This document shows positions 28,541-35,823 of a stretch of DNA of 36,944 bases, piece by piece; within the stretch, counting starts at the first letter, position 1; the number at the start of each line of letters is the position of its first letter. The stretch lies in the NCBI GenBank assembly GCA_020720455.1, contig DYOQ01000003.1, positions 1 through 36,944 on the forward strand, in the 5' to 3' direction. This stretch comes from Bdellovibrio sp. GTDB lineage: Bacteria > Bdellovibrionota > Bacteriovoracia > Bacteriovoracales > Bacteriovoracaceae. Under the pieces are notes generated by a model that searched no databases, had not been told where the DNA came from, and saw only the letters and a program-made list of their open reading frames with translations. Position numbers and translations under genes: made by a program.

Positions 28541-30265
28541 ATGGATAGTTTGGATAAATTTTTATTTAATGGACATTTAAAAAAACTTAAATTTATTTTT
28601 AGGTTTTTCTTTACATACGCGCCCTTTGTTCAATCAAAGCTATGGGTTGGCTGGGTGCTTATGTCTGTCATAACTATTTTTACAACTGTTGCAATGCTTG
28701 TTACTATCTCTACTTTGATGGTATCAACTTCTGAAAATCTTGATAAGATGTTCTGGGCCATAATCGCTTTCGTCGCTTTTTTTGTATCTTCGAAATTTAG
28801 GGTAAAGTTTAAATCAGTTGCCTGTGATGTTATCCATGAGCTGTTAAAGATTAAGGACAAGTCTAGTCAGCCAGAAAATATCTCATATTTTGGAGAGTAT
28901 AAAAGGAGGGTAAAGGAGTCTAAAAAAAATAAGAGTATTCCTGGAAGCGTTGCTCTGTGGGAGTATGATTTAATCTCTAGCAAATGGTTAACGGGTGTCG
29001 TTGATGGCGCAATTGTTGGAAAAATTTTCGAGAAAAATTTTAGTGGGCTTTCAGAGATTGCTCCGGCGATTGGCCGGTTTTTGTTACCAGCATTAATTTA
29101 CGATAACGGCCATAAAGAAAAAGATATTTATGAAAAGATTAAGGCCATTGCTGATAAACTGCCAGAAGCGTATCGACTAGTTGTTAAAGCTGATGAAACT
29201 AGTTTAGATAGTGAGAATAATACTAGCACTGATATTATTATGTTAGGAGATAAAAAACAAGGATCGTATTACAGTGAATTTTTTGATCTTCAGATGAGCA
29301 GAGTTTTTGTTGCTATAGTTATAATTCCACTTGTCCTTGCTATAGTTATTAATCTTTTACTCTTTCCAGATGCCACTACTCTTGTCGTCGGTGGGTTTGG
29401 TGTTGGATTGGTCTGCTCTAGAATTTTTAAAAACCTTATTGATTACTTGGTGAATATTTATTTTTCGGTTCTGTATCTGAAAGTATATCATGTGGATACT
29501 TTAGATAGTACACAGTTAAATAAATTGGCTCCATTTTTGGTCGCCACTGCTGGTGGTAATATTGATACCGATAATGAGATAGAAGAATCAGATGATTTAG
29601 AGGAAGAAATTGTCGATGATGAAGTCGGTACTAAAATTGTCGCAGTAAAAACATTAGAAGAGATCAAAAAAGATAGGTATGAAGCTCTTTCAAAAGAGAC
29701 TGAGTCAGATAAAACTGATTTTACAATTATTGATGATATTGGTGATGATAAGTCGCCGGAGAAATTTGAAGAGAAATTATCTCTTACAAAAAGGATTACA
29801 TTAATAGGGTCAGCGTTTGAACGAATAAATAGTGTTTATAAAGCATTAAAGATAAATACAGATAAGGGACATACTCTTGATACAATCGAAAAGTTTTTAC
29901 TAAAGAAAGGGTTTACCAAAGAGGAGTTTATTCTTGGGAAAGAGGTGATGCTTGAAAAAGAGCAATCTTTTCGAGAGTTCGAATATGATAAGGGAAAAGA
30001 TATGACATCTGTCACTGATGTCATAAATAAGAAGCAATCAGACGTAGCTAATACCCATCAAGATTTAAAAAATGAGTCTTCGGCCGAAAGATTAAATAAA
30101 TTAATAGATTTTATTCAAAAAAATCTAGAAAAGGGCAATTCTAAAGAGTTGATTATAAAATTTTTAAGAAGTAAAAAATATGCAAGAGTCAGAATTGAAG
30201 AGGCCTTTGCGTTGGTTAGTAACATAAAAAAAGTCAGTAGCAATAACCATTCTAAAAAGAGTTAA
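28541..30265 (+). CDS. large membrane protein of unknown function
   Basis: 574 residues. Membrane segments at about 35-60 and 70-84, a soluble part (about 90-250), two more at about 254-274 and 279-293, then an acidic linker (340-362, EIEESDDLEEEIVDDE) and a helical C-terminus. The C-terminus holds two similar helical motifs: DTIEKFLLKKGFTKEEFILG (447-466) and ELIIKFLRSKKYARVRIEEA (536-555), both ending in an acidic helix. I recognise no family. It starts the tight run that includes the Hsp20-like, cupredoxin-like and CpaF genes; 5 bases separate it from the next gene. The start ATG has only a weak ribosome site. Confidence 0.62.
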   Translation: MDSLDKFLFNGHLKKLKFIFRFFFTYAPFVQSKLWVGWVLMSVITIFTTVAMLVTISTLMVSTSENLDKMFWAIIAFVAFFVSSKFRVKFKSVACDVIHELLKIKDKSSQPENISYFGEYKRRVKESKKNKSIPGSVALWEYDLISSKWLTGVVDGAIVGKIFEKNFSGLSEIAPAIGRFLLPALIYDNGHKEKDIYEKIKAIADKLPEAYRLVVKADETSLDSENNTSTDIIMLGDKKQGSYYSEFFDLQMSRVFVAIVIIPLVLAIVINLLLFPDATTLVVGGFGVGLVCSRIFKNLIDYLVNIYFSVLYLKVYHVDTLDSTQLNKLAPFLVATAGGNIDTDNEIEESDDLEEEIVDDEVGTKIVAVKTLEEIKKDRYEALSKETESDKTDFTIIDDIGDDKSPEKFEEKLSLTKRITLIGSAFERINSVYKALKINTDKGHTLDTIEKFLLKKGFTKEEFILGKEVMLEKEQSFREFEYDKGKDMTSVTDVINKKQSDVANTHQDLKNESSAERLNKLIDFIQKNLEKGNSKELIIKFLRSKKYARVRIEEAFALVSNIKKVSSNNHSKKS

Positions 30266-30270
30266 AAATT

Positions 30271-30762
30271 ATGTTTAGTAAAAGAGAATTACTAATTGTA
30301 GTGTTTTTTTTATTTTTTAATTTTGTAAGTGCTAGTGAAGAAAGTTTATGGAGTGATCGTGAGTTAATAAAGAAGATGCTAGGGAGAGATGATTTTTTTA
30401 AAAATGCAGAGGAAGAGTTTAAATGGTCAGAGACACCAACAGAGAGGATTTTAGTTGTTAAAGTAAAATCAATAAAAGATGGCCCGTTAGATATTAAAAT
30501 AGAAAACGGATTAATCTCAATCTCTAGAACAATAGAAAGAGAGGAAGAGCAATCTACTCCATCATCAGGAACAGTTCAAAAGAGTTATAGTACAAAATCG
30601 TTTTCGAAATCGTTATCCGTACCTAATGATACTGATGGAGAAAGGGCGATTATAGAGAATAATAAAGCCAATGAGATTGTCATCAGGTTGCCAAAACTTA
30701 AGAAACAAGCTGATGATATTGATAGAGTACCTGTAACTCCAAATGCCGGCATCAATATCTGA
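30271..30762 (+). CDS. exported Hsp20/alpha-crystallin-like protein
   Basis: 163 residues. Signal peptide 1-20 (VVFFLFFNFVSA-SE), then an acidic helical N-terminal arm and an alpha-crystallin-like beta-sandwich (about 52-141): ERILVVKVKS, PLDIKIENGLISISRT, FSKSLSVPND, AIIENNKANEIVIRLPK. The A-x-x-x-n-G-v-L motif near the end of Hsp20 domains appears as IIENNKANEIVIRLP. Small heat-shock proteins hold unfolded proteins in the cytosol; a signal peptide is unusual and would place this one in the periplasm. It follows the unknown membrane protein by 5 bases. Fold call is by pattern only. Confidence 0.6.
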   Translation: MFSKRELLIVVFFLFFNFVSASEESLWSDRELIKKMLGRDDFFKNAEEEFKWSETPTERILVVKVKSIKDGPLDIKIENGLISISRTIEREEEQSTPSSGTVQKSYSTKSFSKSLSVPNDTDGERAIIENNKANEIVIRLPKLKKQADDIDRVPVTPNAGINI

Positions 30763-30848
30763 TTTTAATCATAAAAAAATGGACAAGATTCTCAAGGAAA
30801 ACAGTCAAGTATTTTCATTAACTTCCGATAAGTAGTCAAAGAAGAAGT

Positions 30849-30863
30849 AAAGGAGGAGTTATT
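30849..30863 (+). promoter_or_regulatory. strong ribosome site before a non-standard ATT start
   Basis: AAAGGAGGAG, the best Shine-Dalgarno match in this part of the window, is followed after TT by ATT (30861-30863), which opens the signal-peptide frame. No ATG, GTG or TTG lies at a workable distance in that frame. AUU starts are known from infC and pcnB in E. coli. Confidence 0.6.
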
Positions 30864-31322
30864 AAAGCTTCAGTTTACACACTATTTGTTCTCTTGTTAT
30901 TGCTTCTGATTGGGCCAACGTTTGCAAAAGAAAATGAAGAAACAGGTATTAAATCAGAAATAATAAGTAGAGAGATTGCGATAGTAGCTTCGGATAGTGG
31001 ATTCTATCCGTCAACCATTCCAATTTTTGTTGGAGAAAAAGTTTTAATATACTTAACTTCGACTACAAATAATCCGAGTTGTTTGATGATACCTGAACAG
31101 AGCATATTTTTGTCCGCGGAAAAGGGCAAGATATCTGAGAAGGTGACCTATTTTGATAAAAAAGGGGTTGTGAAATTTTCATGCCCTAATGGTAACATTG
31201 CAGGAGAGTTTGTGGTTTTGGAACGAAAAAACTCTATCTCTGATGGACTAGACAAGAGGCAGCGGGCCTCTTTAGAAGCAGTTGATACGTCAATCAAAAT
31301 TTGGTCGCCAAAGGATGAGTAA
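30861..31322 (+). CDS. cupredoxin-like periplasmic protein with ATT start
   Basis: 153 residues from a proposed ATT start at 30861. Reading from it gives an ideal signal peptide (IKASVYTLFVLLLLLLIGPT, cut near FA-KE). From the first usable TTG at 30894 the basic n-region would be lost and no ribosome site remains. AAAGGAGGAG (30849-30858) sits just before ATT, and the frame upstream to the TAA at 30819 has no ATG, GTG or TTG. The mature part has cupredoxin traits (FYPSTIPIFVGEKVLIYL, VVKFSCPNGNIAGEFVVL), but the His and Met copper ligands are absent; C74 and C108 are the only cysteines. So copper binding is doubtful. Its TAA overlaps the CpaF start (TAATG). Confidence 0.6.
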   Translation: MKASVYTLFVLLLLLLIGPTFAKENEETGIKSEIISREIAIVASDSGFYPSTIPIFVGEKVLIYLTSTTNNPSCLMIPEQSIFLSAEKGKISEKVTYFDKKGVVKFSCPNGNIAGEFVVLERKNSISDGLDKRQRASLEAVDTSIKIWSPKDE

Positions 31323-32461
31323 TGTCTGTATTTAGCGACGCTATTTCCAATTTTCTTGCACCGATCAAGAATTTACTTGATGACGATTCAGTTACGGAAA
31401 TTATGATTAATGGACCTAAGGAGATATTTGTTGAAATAAAAGGCCAAGTTTATAAAACACCAAATCAGTTTGAAGATGAGGCAACGCTATTATCTGCCGT
31501 TAGAAGTATTGCGCAATCAGTAAACCGAATTATCGATGGAGATAACCCTCGCCTAGATGCTCGACTTCCAAATGGTTCAAGGATTCATGCAGTTTTGCCA
31601 CCTATGGCAAAATGTGGAACAACTGTTGCCATTCGAAAATTTTCTAAAGAGAAATTATCATTTAAGGATCTTGTCAATTTTGGATCGCTATCTTCTGCTG
31701 CTGCTAGGTTTCTTGATGTGTGTGTTCATCTCGGGAAAAATATTATTGTTTCAGGTGGTACTGGATCTGGAAAAACAACAATGCTTAATGTCCTTGGTAC
31801 TAGAATTCCAAAAACAGAAAGATTAATCATCATTGAAGATGCTGTGGAACTGCAAATCCATGCTGAACATGTTGTCCAGTTTGAGACTAGAAAGCCTGAC
31901 GAAATGAGAGGTATTGGCGAGGTTAGCATCAGGGAACTGGTGTTGTCTGCAATGAGACTTCGTCCAGATCGAATTATTGTAGGTGAGGTTAGGGGTGACG
32001 AAGCATTAGATCTTATTCAAGTAATGAACACAGGCCATAGTGGAAGTATGGGAACGGTTCACGCAAATAGTCCGGTTGATGCTTGTACGAGGCTTGAAAC
32101 TCTTTGCTTGATGGGTGATACAAAAGTACCAGCAGATGCGATAAGAAAGATGATTGCAAGTGCAATGCAGATTATTGTTCAGTGTTCTCGTTATCATGAC
32201 GGTGGAAGAAGAACAGCTCAGATATCAGAAATTTTAGGTATTGATGAGCATGGCAGATATATAGGAAGAGATATTTTTAAGTGGGTTCAAACAGGAAGAG
32301 ATGAAGCGACAGGTAAATATATCGGGGAGATGATTGGTTGTAACTACGTTCCTACATTTTATAACGATATTGTTGTTAATAAATTTCCATTTCAGAAAAA
32401 TCTGTTTGCTCCTCCTGAGTGGGCAGCAGAAAATGGCACAGTCAAAAAGAAGGCGGCTTAA
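31322..32461 (+). CDS. cpaF: CpaF/TadA-type secretion ATPase
   Basis: 379 residues of a type II/IV secretion hexameric ATPase. Walker A SGGTGSGKTT (144-153), Asp box IIIEDAVEL (169-177), Walker B RIIVGEVRGDEALDL (217-231) and His box TGHSGSMGTVHANS (237-250) are all intact, so it should hydrolyse ATP. CpaF powers Flp/Tad pilus assembly or retraction in the cytosol at the inner membrane. It is shorter at the N-terminus than typical CpaF (about 450-500), starting directly with the DDDSVTEIMINGP block. No CpaE, TadB, TadC, secretin or pilin gene is adjacent. Its start overlaps the stop of the cupredoxin-like gene, and a sensor kinase starts 1 base after its stop. Confidence 0.88.
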   Translation: MSVFSDAISNFLAPIKNLLDDDSVTEIMINGPKEIFVEIKGQVYKTPNQFEDEATLLSAVRSIAQSVNRIIDGDNPRLDARLPNGSRIHAVLPPMAKCGTTVAIRKFSKEKLSFKDLVNFGSLSSAAARFLDVCVHLGKNIIVSGGTGSGKTTMLNVLGTRIPKTERLIIIEDAVELQIHAEHVVQFETRKPDEMRGIGEVSIRELVLSAMRLRPDRIIVGEVRGDEALDLIQVMNTGHSGSMGTVHANSPVDACTRLETLCLMGDTKVPADAIRKMIASAMQIIVQCSRYHDGGRRTAQISEILGIDEHGRYIGRDIFKWVQTGRDEATGKYIGEMIGCNYVPTFYNDIVVNKFPFQKNLFAPPEWAAENGTVKKKAA

Positions 32462-32462
32462 A

Positions 32463-33779
32463 ATGAAAGTAAGTAGTAGCGATAGCACATTGTCACTTTC
32501 GTTATGGAGAAGATACGTCATTTTTTCATTGGCAGTGTCAGTGATGATAATGTTTGTAGATATCGCTAGGTATAATTTTGAAGCGATCTCATTCTTTCCT
32601 TCTCTGTTTGTTCTTATTAACTATTTTTATTACATGAACATTAAAGAGTACGATGAATCAATGAATGCTAATATTCTTTTTTTCACTCAGATTATAGCAC
32701 TAGTAGGAATGGGTTTTGAGCATAACTATTTGGCCCCATTTTTTGTCACGGTCGTTCCGGTCTCTTTTGGTATATTGTATTGTTTGCTTAATTTTCAAAT
32801 GTTAAGAAGACATTGTGATAATTATACAAGAAGGGCAGTGTTACCCTTTATTGTTTTATTTTGTAGCTACCTTGCCGGATATGGAATAACTAAGGTGACA
32901 CCAATGGTGCTAGTTGAACTTTCACTTTGGATGTTCTTTTTATTGTGGGCAGGGGCCATTAGTTACTATGGTGGAAAAGAGGTACAGGATCGTCACTACC
33001 CCAAGTTTGGTGGACAAAGAAGTCTTGGTGAAAATGGTCTTAGTGAAGTTTCGGTAGATAGAATTTTTTTTCATGACATAATAAATTCGACACATGGGAT
33101 GTCGCTGTTTCTTTCTAATAGGATAAATTCAGGAAGTGGTGTTAGTGCTAAAGAGTGCAAAAGGATCGATGAAGAGATAAAGTTAATTCAGATAATGTTG
33201 AAAGACCATTTTGGAATGAATCATCGAAATTTGGAAAAAGTTGAGCAGATGGTTCCGCTGGTATCTGTTGCTGAGCGGTTGATTGGTTATGTTAGAAATT
33301 ATCTTCCGGAATCAGAAGTTAACTGTAAGATGACTTTTAATGGAATGGTTGCGCCAGGAGGCATTGAGTTTATTCCATTAAATGTCATGGTTGACTACCC
33401 ATCGCTCTATAGGATTATTGTTAATTTAGTAAAAAATATTAAAGAGGAAGGTTCTAAAGATATCATGTTTGATATTTCGGTTGACGGTGGTTGGTTACGC
33501 TTAAAAACAATGAATAAAATTTTTAAGTTATCATCAGATGGCGAAAACATGATAGACAATCTTAAAGATATGATCACGGGAAAAGTTGGTGTCGATTACA
33601 AAAGTAAGAAGCTAGAGCGTGGTGTTGGGCTAGAGTCAATTTTTTCAATCTGTGCAGCTTGTGGTGGTAAGTTTGATTTTTGTCTTGAAGATGGCCATTG
33701 GGCAAATAGAGTTGATCTGCCTATCAAAATAGTTGACGATAGCGTTCACGATAAGAATGAGCATAAAAAAGCCGCTTAA
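32463..33779 (+). CDS. membrane histidine kinase with HDxxN motif
   Basis: 438 residues. Five to six membrane helices (about 16-165) form the sensor part, followed by a short linker. The phosphoacceptor block FFHDIINSTHGM (203-213; H204) is the HDxxN type seen in SpoOB/CitA/LytS-like kinases. An ATPase domain follows: N-box IIVNLVKNIKEE with N321 and N325, and GVGLESIFSICAACGG (387-402) as the G-box. The D-box (G1, DxGxG) is not clear, so ATP affinity may differ from typical kinases. No response-regulator gene is adjacent. The ATG at 32463 is chosen over in-frame upstream starts inside cpaF, since it follows the cpaF stop (32461) by one base. Confidence 0.75.
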   Translation: MKVSSSDSTLSLSLWRRYVIFSLAVSVMIMFVDIARYNFEAISFFPSLFVLINYFYYMNIKEYDESMNANILFFTQIIALVGMGFEHNYLAPFFVTVVPVSFGILYCLLNFQMLRRHCDNYTRRAVLPFIVLFCSYLAGYGITKVTPMVLVELSLWMFFLLWAGAISYYGGKEVQDRHYPKFGGQRSLGENGLSEVSVDRIFFHDIINSTHGMSLFLSNRINSGSGVSAKECKRIDEEIKLIQIMLKDHFGMNHRNLEKVEQMVPLVSVAERLIGYVRNYLPESEVNCKMTFNGMVAPGGIEFIPLNVMVDYPSLYRIIVNLVKNIKEEGSKDIMFDISVDGGWLRLKTMNKIFKLSSDGENMIDNLKDMITGKVGVDYKSKKLERGVGLESIFSICAACGGKFDFCLEDGHWANRVDLPIKIVDDSVHDKNEHKKAA

Positions 33780-33826: not shown

Positions 33827-35014
33827 ATGGTTAGATTAAGTTTGTTTTTTATTTTGCTGATATTTTATTCTAGCAATCTTTTTGCTAAGGCAAAGGTATA
33901 CAGAATTGCTCCAGAAACAGTTAACATCGAAGGGGTTGAGTTTAGTTTTGATGCAAGTCGTTTTTCTACTAATGGTTGGTATGATAGCGAAGGGAACAAA
34001 ACAGGGATGTCATCTGATCTAAGTTATACCAGTACATCGGGAGAGATTATTGGTAGATATGGCTTTTCTCATAGCTTAGAATTTAGAGGAGGTGTTAGAG
34101 GTCGCAGAAATAACTCCTATACTGAGGGCGTTCACGATCTTTATCGAACAGGCCTCGAATCATTTCTACTTGGTGGTAAATACTATCTTCCACAGGAAAA
34201 CCACTGGGATTTGGGGTTTGATGTTCAACTAAGAAGGTCATTTTATACAAATCCAGATTCACAAAGTGGAACCGTTCCAGCTGATGAGATAACTCTAGGT
34301 GACGATGGAATGGATCTCTTTGCGAATGTGCTTCTAGGGCATCGATCAACAATCTTTAATCTATCTATGAACCTTGGATATAGAAGACCTGCAAACGATC
34401 TTAGTGATGAAATAATTTTTGGTGCTGAGGCCGCTTGGGCATATTTTAATAGAGCAGCACTTGTTCTTGGAGTTAAAGGTTCACTCTCTTTAGGAACTGA
34501 TCAATATAGTGAATCACCAAGTTTAAAGCCGACAGAAAATACAGGCAATACGAGACTTTTTAATAGCATAAATCAAAGTTACACAGCTCCATATGCAGGA
34601 ATTAATTTTTTAATTGGTGAAGTGCGACTATCTGGAAGGGTTGCATATTATGCTGCAGGAGTCTCAACTGATAGTGGTATCGAAACATCTCTGAAATTAG
34701 AAATTAGTTCTGGTGGAAAAACTATAGAGAAAATAATTGATAATAAGTTTAAAGAGTATGATATAGAAGCCTCTGTGGTTAAAGTCTCCCCTCGTGGTGT
34801 GTTTTTAAAGATTGATAAAGGACAGACATCAGCGATAGAAAAAGGGATGAAAATTGATATTTATAAAGCCGACTATTTTGATAAGAATATATTGGTAGCG
34901 CACGGTTATATTCATGAGGTAAAACCTGAGTTTGCGATTGTAAAAGTTGTCAAAACCTATCGGGAAAACATTTCGATTGAGATAGGTTTTTTGGCAAGAG
35001 GATACGAAGAATAA
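33827..35014 (+). CDS. outer-membrane barrel with C-terminal beta domain
   Basis: 395 residues. Signal peptide about 1-20 (SSNLFA-KA), a barrel-like region (about 30-290) with long alternating strands such as DLGFDVQLRRSFY and FNLSMNLGYRRP, then a C-terminal domain (about 305-393): IEASVVKVSPRGVFLKIDKG, GMKIDIYKADYF, FAIVKVVKT. This last part resembles the small beta domain at the end of FlgT-type and other envelope proteins (pattern: V..V...g..v.l..G....v..G....vy). No family recognised for the barrel. It follows the kinase gene by 47 bases, so it may or may not share the transcript. Confidence 0.65.
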   Translation: MVRLSLFFILLIFYSSNLFAKAKVYRIAPETVNIEGVEFSFDASRFSTNGWYDSEGNKTGMSSDLSYTSTSGEIIGRYGFSHSLEFRGGVRGRRNNSYTEGVHDLYRTGLESFLLGGKYYLPQENHWDLGFDVQLRRSFYTNPDSQSGTVPADEITLGDDGMDLFANVLLGHRSTIFNLSMNLGYRRPANDLSDEIIFGAEAAWAYFNRAALVLGVKGSLSLGTDQYSESPSLKPTENTGNTRLFNSINQSYTAPYAGINFLIGEVRLSGRVAYYAAGVSTDSGIETSLKLEISSGGKTIEKIIDNKFKEYDIEASVVKVSPRGVFLKIDKGQTSAIEKGMKIDIYKADYFDKNILVAHGYIHEVKPEFAIVKVVKTYRENISIEIGFLARGYEE

Positions 35015-35082
35015 AAAACTTAGTTTCATTTATTTAAACGATGAAGTATCATTAAATGGTAACTTTAAAAGAGGATATGTTT

Positions 35083-35823
35083 GTGATGTGTATTAAAACT
35101 GTTGTCGCCTTACTTATTATGTTGCTCTTATCCACACCAGTTTTGGCCAAGAGATTTAGTAGCCAGTACTGTGAGTTTGAATTACCTGCTGGTTGGTCAT
35201 GTGCTCTTGAAGGGGCCGAGTGGGTTTGTCAAGCAAGTAGCAAGGATCGTCAAAAAGAAGCAATTATTATTTTGGCAGCAAAGCATAGAGGGACACAGGA
35301 TTCACTAGAATCGTATGAGGATTACTTAAAAAAAGTAAAGACATTTACAATCCCTGGCGGCAAAACACAAATATCTGAACCAAAATATACAAAGAGTATG
35401 AAAGTAAACGATCAAACATGGATCGATTCGCTACATATGGCCAGTGAGGTTCCAGGTTTTTTCACTAGATACCTTGCAACAGTTAAAGAGGATCTAGGTG
35501 TTGCTGTTACTTTCTCCGTAGCAAAAGACCATTACGATAGCTACAAAGGTGTTTTTGATAATATCATCAACAGTATGAGGGTTTTTAGAAATAAAGGGGC
35601 AACTAGTGGTGTCTCTGTTTTAAAAACAAATGAGCATGCTGATGGAGATCTTCCAATTTTTATTCCTGAAGATGGTACTGCTGGACAAAGACAAGGCAAG
35701 GGTAAATCAGCAGGTGCGGGTGCTGGTGCTACTGCAAATCTAATTTTGATAGTGCTAGCAGCAGCTGGTGTAGGTGGCTTCCTATATCTTAAAAAGAAAG
35801 GTAAGAATAAGAAGAAAAAATAA
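35083..35823 (+). CDS. exported protein with C-terminal anchor and basic tail
   Basis: About 246 residues. Signal peptide (VVALLIMLLLSTPVLA), then a domain of roughly 150 residues (FELPAGWSCALEGAEWVCQA ... VAVTFSVAKDHYDSYKGVFD), whose FELPxGW opening and closing helix recall the PsbP/DcrB/MOG1-like fold, then a Gly/Ala-rich linker, a hydrophobic helix (LILIVLAAAGVGGFLYL) and a lysine-rich tail KKKGKNKKKK. The tail after the helix suggests a periplasmic domain tethered with its end in the cytosol. Start choice is uncertain: AGAGG at 35070-35074 lies 8 bases before GTG 35083; ATG 35086 and ATG 35056 are also open. Function unknown. Confidence 0.62.
   Translation: MMCIKTVVALLIMLLLSTPVLAKRFSSQYCEFELPAGWSCALEGAEWVCQASSKDRQKEAIIILAAKHRGTQDSLESYEDYLKKVKTFTIPGGKTQISEPKYTKSMKVNDQTWIDSLHMASEVPGFFTRYLATVKEDLGVAVTFSVAKDHYDSYKGVFDNIINSMRVFRNKGATSGVSVLKTNEHADGDLPIFIPEDGTAGQRQGKGKSAGAGAGATANLILIVLAAAGVGGFLYLKKKGKNKKKK

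Follow-up and report, generated by a model that had tools for sequence, protein, structure and literature searches.

A conserved operon of an exported cupredoxin-fold protein and a CpaF-type ATPase in Bdellovibrionota, possibly encoding an accessory Tad-pilus motor

Five adjacent genes of this region had been grouped into one envelope module in a preliminary description made from the DNA sequence. The robust unit among them is a two-gene operon, found Bdellovibrionota-wide, that encodes an exported cupredoxin-fold protein and a CpaF-type ATPase. We tentatively propose, with a probability of about 0.4, that this ATPase is an accessory second Tad-pilus motor working on a single TadB/TadC platform, that the cupredoxin-like protein is its periplasmic partner, and that both the motor and a nearby sensor kinase are subject to tail-driven turnover of the ClpXP type.

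The window, by which we mean the whole 36,944-nucleotide stretch of DNA that was analyzed, is contig C46 of an assembly of 2.70 Mb in 92 contigs, which we assign to the phylum Bdellovibrionota on the strength of a named relative (L150) in the CpaF clade. All five genes were found again in the places and in the single direction previously given, as plus-strand ORFs at positions 28541-30265, 30271-30762, 30894-31322, 31322-32461, and 32463-33779. The described coupling of cpaF to the upstream cupredoxin-like gene was seen as a TAATG overlap, and the kinase gene does lie right behind cpaF, starting 1 base past the CpaF stop and carrying an HDxxN motif that reads HDIIN. The gaps had been put at no more than about 100 bases, which is correct unless the cupredoxin gene starts at the TTG at position 30894 given by the mechanical ORF call, in which case one gap is 131 bases. 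Profile searches of the window from 25.1 to 36.8 kb recognized no CpaE, TadB, TadC, or secretin, so that the absence of these proteins, originally claimed for all 36.9 kb, holds for the searched part. The term "orphan" for this CpaF needs qualifying, as a tad locus is present elsewhere in the same genome.

To assess the conservation of the gene order, we clustered the ORFs called in the regions around the best CpaF matches of 29 more genomes of this family and 19 from other families; because of contig breaks, absences at these loci can be claimed only with caution. The cupredoxin-like gene was directly upstream of cpaF and on the same strand in 48 of the 49 loci, with a gap of -22 to 71 bases. 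The sole exception (L105) came from genus g33, where CpaF was present without a detectable cupredoxin; none was found in the genomes of this genus that were checked. In genome G218 (locus L149) the only CpaF found was the tad fusion, yet the cupredoxin gene was kept near enolase. Among the 30 family loci, the Hsp20 gene was upstream of cpaF in 16 and the kinase gene was downstream in 11, as were genes for a 395-aa protein (33827..35014, plus strand) in 18, a 255-aa protein (35056..35823, plus strand) in 19, and enolase in 16. The neighborhood seen at the family level thus extends past position 33779, up to 35823. Neither the Hsp20, the kinase, nor the 395-aa and 255-aa proteins were present in any of the 19 other-family loci. 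Where the kinase gene and the genes for the latter two proteins follow cpaF, they usually come after enolase. Neither of these two proteins had a Pfam match; the 395-aa protein is exported and, judged by inspection of its sequence, probably forms an outer-membrane barrel followed by a soluble domain at its C terminus, and the 255-aa protein is an exported single-pass protein with a Lys-rich C terminus. A cluster that was at first taken for the missing partner gene turned out to be enolase.

These neighborhood counts led us to reject a conserved five-gene module. The tight spacing, the TAATG coupling, and a rare C-terminal tail common to the kinase and CpaF (described below) are what such a dedicated envelope device would lead one to expect, but the Hsp20-like protein (30271..30762, plus strand), which has a signal peptide and scored just above the Pfam HSP20 cut-off (21.7 versus 20.8 bits), is an optional neighbor at the family level, and the membrane protein encoded at 28541..30265 (plus strand) is apparently species-specific, having no relative in 58 other genomes and no match above the cut-off in Pfam, NCBIfam, or PHROG. 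In addition, the kinase gene sits directly behind cpaF in the window, with no enolase in between, while in relatives enolase, MurI, and other genes normally separate cpaF from the kinase unit, or the kinase is located elsewhere. We therefore regard the five-gene device as very improbable. A viral origin of the 28541 gene was considered and rejected, as no relatives were found in IMG/VR viral contigs or PHROGs. For relatives with longer contigs, a split-off tad locus just beyond the window was also rejected, since enolase, PhoH, MurI, and similar genes are found there.

The association of the ATPase with the exported cupredoxin-like protein, by contrast with the five-gene order, proved to be phylum-wide and far beyond chance. 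When 97 family genomes were scored for both genes, a close CpaF orthologue was present in every one of the 85 with the cupredoxin, and of the 12 without the cupredoxin, 7 were also without the CpaF paralogue and 4 of the other 5 belonged to one genus (Fisher P of 6e-8, with related genomes treated as independent). For the situation outside the phylum we relied on 79 other CpaF loci, from a foreign comparison set of 80 loci among the matches listed, and no convincing cupredoxin was found near CpaF in any of these 79. In the literature searched, we found neither bd3308 nor a second Tad-system CpaF described.

The cupredoxin-like protein is probably translated from the ATT at position 30861 (30861..31322, plus strand), because no other start yields a normal signal peptide. 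This start lies a few bases past a strong AAGGAGG sequence and gives the full signal peptide IKASVYTLFVLLLLLLIGPTFA. The AlphaFold model of the protein had a pLDDT of 85.5, and a Foldseek search with it returned the Cupredoxin_1 structure 4hcf (rmsd of 1.5, E value of 2e-9) as well as CuA domains. The protein thus has the fold of the Cupredoxin_1, CupA, and CuA proteins, and in an alignment its two cysteines coincide with the cysteines of the CupA Cu(I) chaperone. Unlike these proteins, it is without the usual His ligand, the His-Cys-His-Met set of copper ligands is incomplete, and the cysteines are not present in all families: the Cys-Cys pair was found in 40 of the 48 sequences, and in the remaining 8, from Bdellovibrio-like families, one or both were replaced by serine. 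Metal binding is therefore not universal in this group. Since the ligands are not conserved, a role in copper electron transfer is weakened, and a structural or sensing role is likelier.

The ATPase paralogue (31322..32461, plus strand) is approximately 43% identical to the CpaF structures (Caulobacter CpaF, PDB 8rjf and 9e24) over the shared NTD-ATPase region, and its alignment starts at query residue 12, opposite residue 148 of the 501-residue CpaF chain. Just 11 to 25 aa precede the shared domain in all 49 orthologues versus 353 aa in the CpaE-CpaF fusion, and the paralogue is without the N-terminal disordered region and the three-helix bundle of Tad CpaF, the latter of which is described as belonging to the minimum architecture of a bacterial CpaF (PMC12019362). 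The Walker A and B motifs are intact, and by these motifs the paralogue is judged catalytically intact. Its best NCBIfam model was TIGR03819, with a score below the cut-off (277 versus 373 bits). CpaF structures were the best structural match to its model (pLDDT of 86.9), in which disorder is predicted for the last five residues. In phylogenetic trees, the orthologues formed a clade (SH-like support of 0.996 over 50 tips, SH-aLRT of 99 over 19 rows) that was separate from the Bdellovibrionota tad fusions. The paralogue shares its fold, Walker motifs, NTD, and ATPase domain with Tad CpaF/TadA but differs in the loss of the bundle and disordered region, in its location outside a tad locus, and in its cupredoxin-like partner. 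Its two domains without a three-helix bundle also resemble those of VirB11 ATPases; however, its match to TIGR02788 was below the cut-off, it is nearer to CpaF in both structure and sequence, and no type IV secretion genes were found around the loci read. A CpaF without the bundle was also seen in a Verrucomicrobia MAG (L183, 3974-5041), where it has no cupredoxin and is followed by PP2C-type phosphatase and kinase genes. Loss of the bundle is thus not by itself a unique feature of the paralogue.

A second cpaF copy is present in the same genome in a separate tad locus on contig C71, which encodes a 709-aa CpaE-CpaF fusion together with TadB, and a TadC-like gene is found on contig C79. In 8 of 8 near-complete genomes checked, the T2SSF matches consisted of a PilC pair, a GspF pair, one TadB, and one TadC, with the PilC and GspF names assigned by size and pairing. 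The same six matches recurred, so that two or more CpaF proteins typically go with a single pair of Tad platform proteins. Both the tad locus on other contigs and the lone TadB/TadC set fit the other possibility raised at the outset, that of a module supplying an ATPase to pilus genes elsewhere. TadB/TadC-type genes are kept in the near-complete genomes G089 and G023, which are without the paralogue, and in G026. In several of the genomes that have the paralogue but no tad fusion, TadB lies at the edge of a contig, and other such genomes are incomplete; the missing fusion is for these reasons probably an assembly loss. Two further observations concern this gene set. G023 (contig C27) and G089 (contig C26) have additional T2SSF genes, among them a pair resembling TadB/TadC, and the genome studied here (G000) has a third and a fourth divergent CpaF-like ATPase at C63:11911-12789 (L003) and C43:5519-6097 (L004), with the C43 copy adjoining a secretin-like gene.

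Whether the paralogue uses the Tad platform can be considered from the residues whose roles in platform contact have been shown or predicted (PMC11300603, PMC12019362). Most of the platform-facing residues of loop 8 were retained, R205 in 48 of 49 orthologues and D208 in 43 of 49; R206, the pore-loop contact E331, and the neighbors of E331 were not conserved in the paralogue clade. The latter result could mean a different platform, and with the three-helix bundle the paralogue has lost a predicted contact to the platform, both of which count against the accessory-motor reading. They would instead suit a motor that has changed its platform and that powers, with the cupredoxin-like protein as a structural or redox part, some other envelope device. 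The divergence of the extended pore-loop tip, the separation of the clade from Tad CpaF, and the existence of the related bundle-less CpaF beside phosphatase and kinase genes in the Verrucomicrobia MAG all point the same way, but R205 and D208 are largely kept and no extra T2SSF platform gene was present in the 8 near-complete genomes checked. We consider such a device unlikely.

CpaF and the kinase have a common C-terminal tail, conserved as -K-K-A/V-A/S, which in the window is KKAA-stop in both cases (32447..32461 and 33765..33779, plus strand). Among CpaF orthologues, 37 of 49 end in -AA and 42 of 49 in [ASVL]A, and the corresponding numbers for kinase orthologues are 14 and 18 of 19; only 1 of 782 other ORFs of more than 150 aa in the same loci ends in -AA. 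Variants include AS, VA, and AG, some orthologues (e.g., that of L150) have no tail, and the tad fusions checked have different C-terminal endings. The conservation in CpaF is restricted to the last four positions, and the ending is encoded by 24 codon/stop combinations, so that selection appears to act on the protein end. Pattern searches of the whole genome found 20 KAA-stop sites versus 5 in the reversed control; 7 of the 20 are real ORF ends, and 2 of these are CpaF and the kinase. The rare tail gives the earlier grouping of CpaF with the kinase independent support.

Published ClpX C-motif-2 tails include those of YbaQ (RAKKVA), PncB (HIKKAS), and MuA (RRKKAI) (PMC9775585), and the KKAA, KKVA, and KKAS variants match them closely in having K-K-[AV]-[ASI] at the C terminus. 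At the level of sequence we strongly predict that the tails are ClpX-type degrons, by which CpaF and the kinase would be degraded. The variants AS, VA, and AG could also be read as showing that the tails serve for binding to some other cytoplasmic partner or as a positioning mark, which we find somewhat doubtful given the likeness to the published tails and the fact that the organism's own tmRNA tag ends in -AMAA. Both the clpX-clpP operon and the TAD operon belong to the four core operons of the attack phase that are syntenic in these predators (PMC5430801).

The kinase (32463..33779, plus strand) is a membrane sensor kinase-like protein with weak GHKL/HATPase profile matches. In the family alignment the N box and the GLG motif of its ATPase domain are retained, but the G1 box is without its usual DxG, so the kinase may be divergent or inactive. 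It could be a chance neighbor of a functional cupredoxin-CpaF pair, with the tail being a general feature of signaling proteins in this phylum; we give this alternative some weight, though we incline against it. Near-complete genomes G089 and G023 have relatives of the kinase and no CpaF paralogue, and KKAA ends are also found on PilZ, HD-GYP, PAS, and receiver proteins, as chance placement would allow. However, the chance probability of any adjacency among the approximately seven KAA-ending proteins of the genome is about 0.016, and wherever one contig carries the kinase and CpaF no more than about 30 kb apart, the kinase lies downstream of CpaF and in the same direction. KKAA or KAA C termini, which are rare genome-wide, were also seen at G000:C12:90266-90277, C57:26677-26688, C62:2077-2088, and C81:27266-27277 (L231, L244, L245, and L248) and at L253-L282, and in several Bdellovibrionota genomes they occur on GAF-HD-GYP proteins, PilZ proteins, PAS sensors, receiver proteins, and a small conserved acidic family. 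The signaling proteins with these ends may possibly form a C-degron set.

In the accessory-motor reading that we favor, the paralogue would use the same single TadB/TadC platform as the CpaE-CpaF fusion of the tad locus, perhaps favoring retraction or a different operating mode of the Tad pilus. The cupredoxin-like protein would be the partner of the motor across the membrane, on the periplasmic side, and ClpXP-type degradation, acting through the -KKAA tails that the motor and the nearby kinase have in common, would control how much of each is present. To our knowledge, Tad pili have otherwise been described as single-motor systems. A leaner second motor beside an assembly motor is reminiscent of the type IVa retraction ATPases PilT and PilU, but this is an analogy only: by sequence the paralogue belongs to CpaF and not to PilT, and a role in retraction is hypothetical. 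In a more specific version, the Tad pilus would have two motors, a CpaE-fused assembly motor and a bundle-less motor with its cupredoxin-like partner, and ClpXP would remove the latter and its cognate kinase at life-cycle transitions; we hold this to be distinctly unlikely as a whole. An expression lead comes from Bdellovibrio bacteriovorus, in which the cpaF gene bd3307, located outside the TAD locus, is, like bd0108-0121 and tadC, downregulated in host-independent strains (PMC3818213). From its relative position, bd3307 is a putative orthologue of the paralogue. Its expression pattern is also seen for type IVa genes and is thus not specific to Tad.

The way in which a single CpaF drives both extension and retraction of Tad pili is still to be explained (PMC11300603, PMC12019362), and a phylum where almost all genomes combine a lone TadB/TadC set with an additional CpaF of reduced length would offer a natural test of divided labor. 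The group includes predatory bacteria that require Tad pilins for prey killing (PMC5430801), and the degron-like tail common to the ATPase and the kinase may bear on the timing of the motor.
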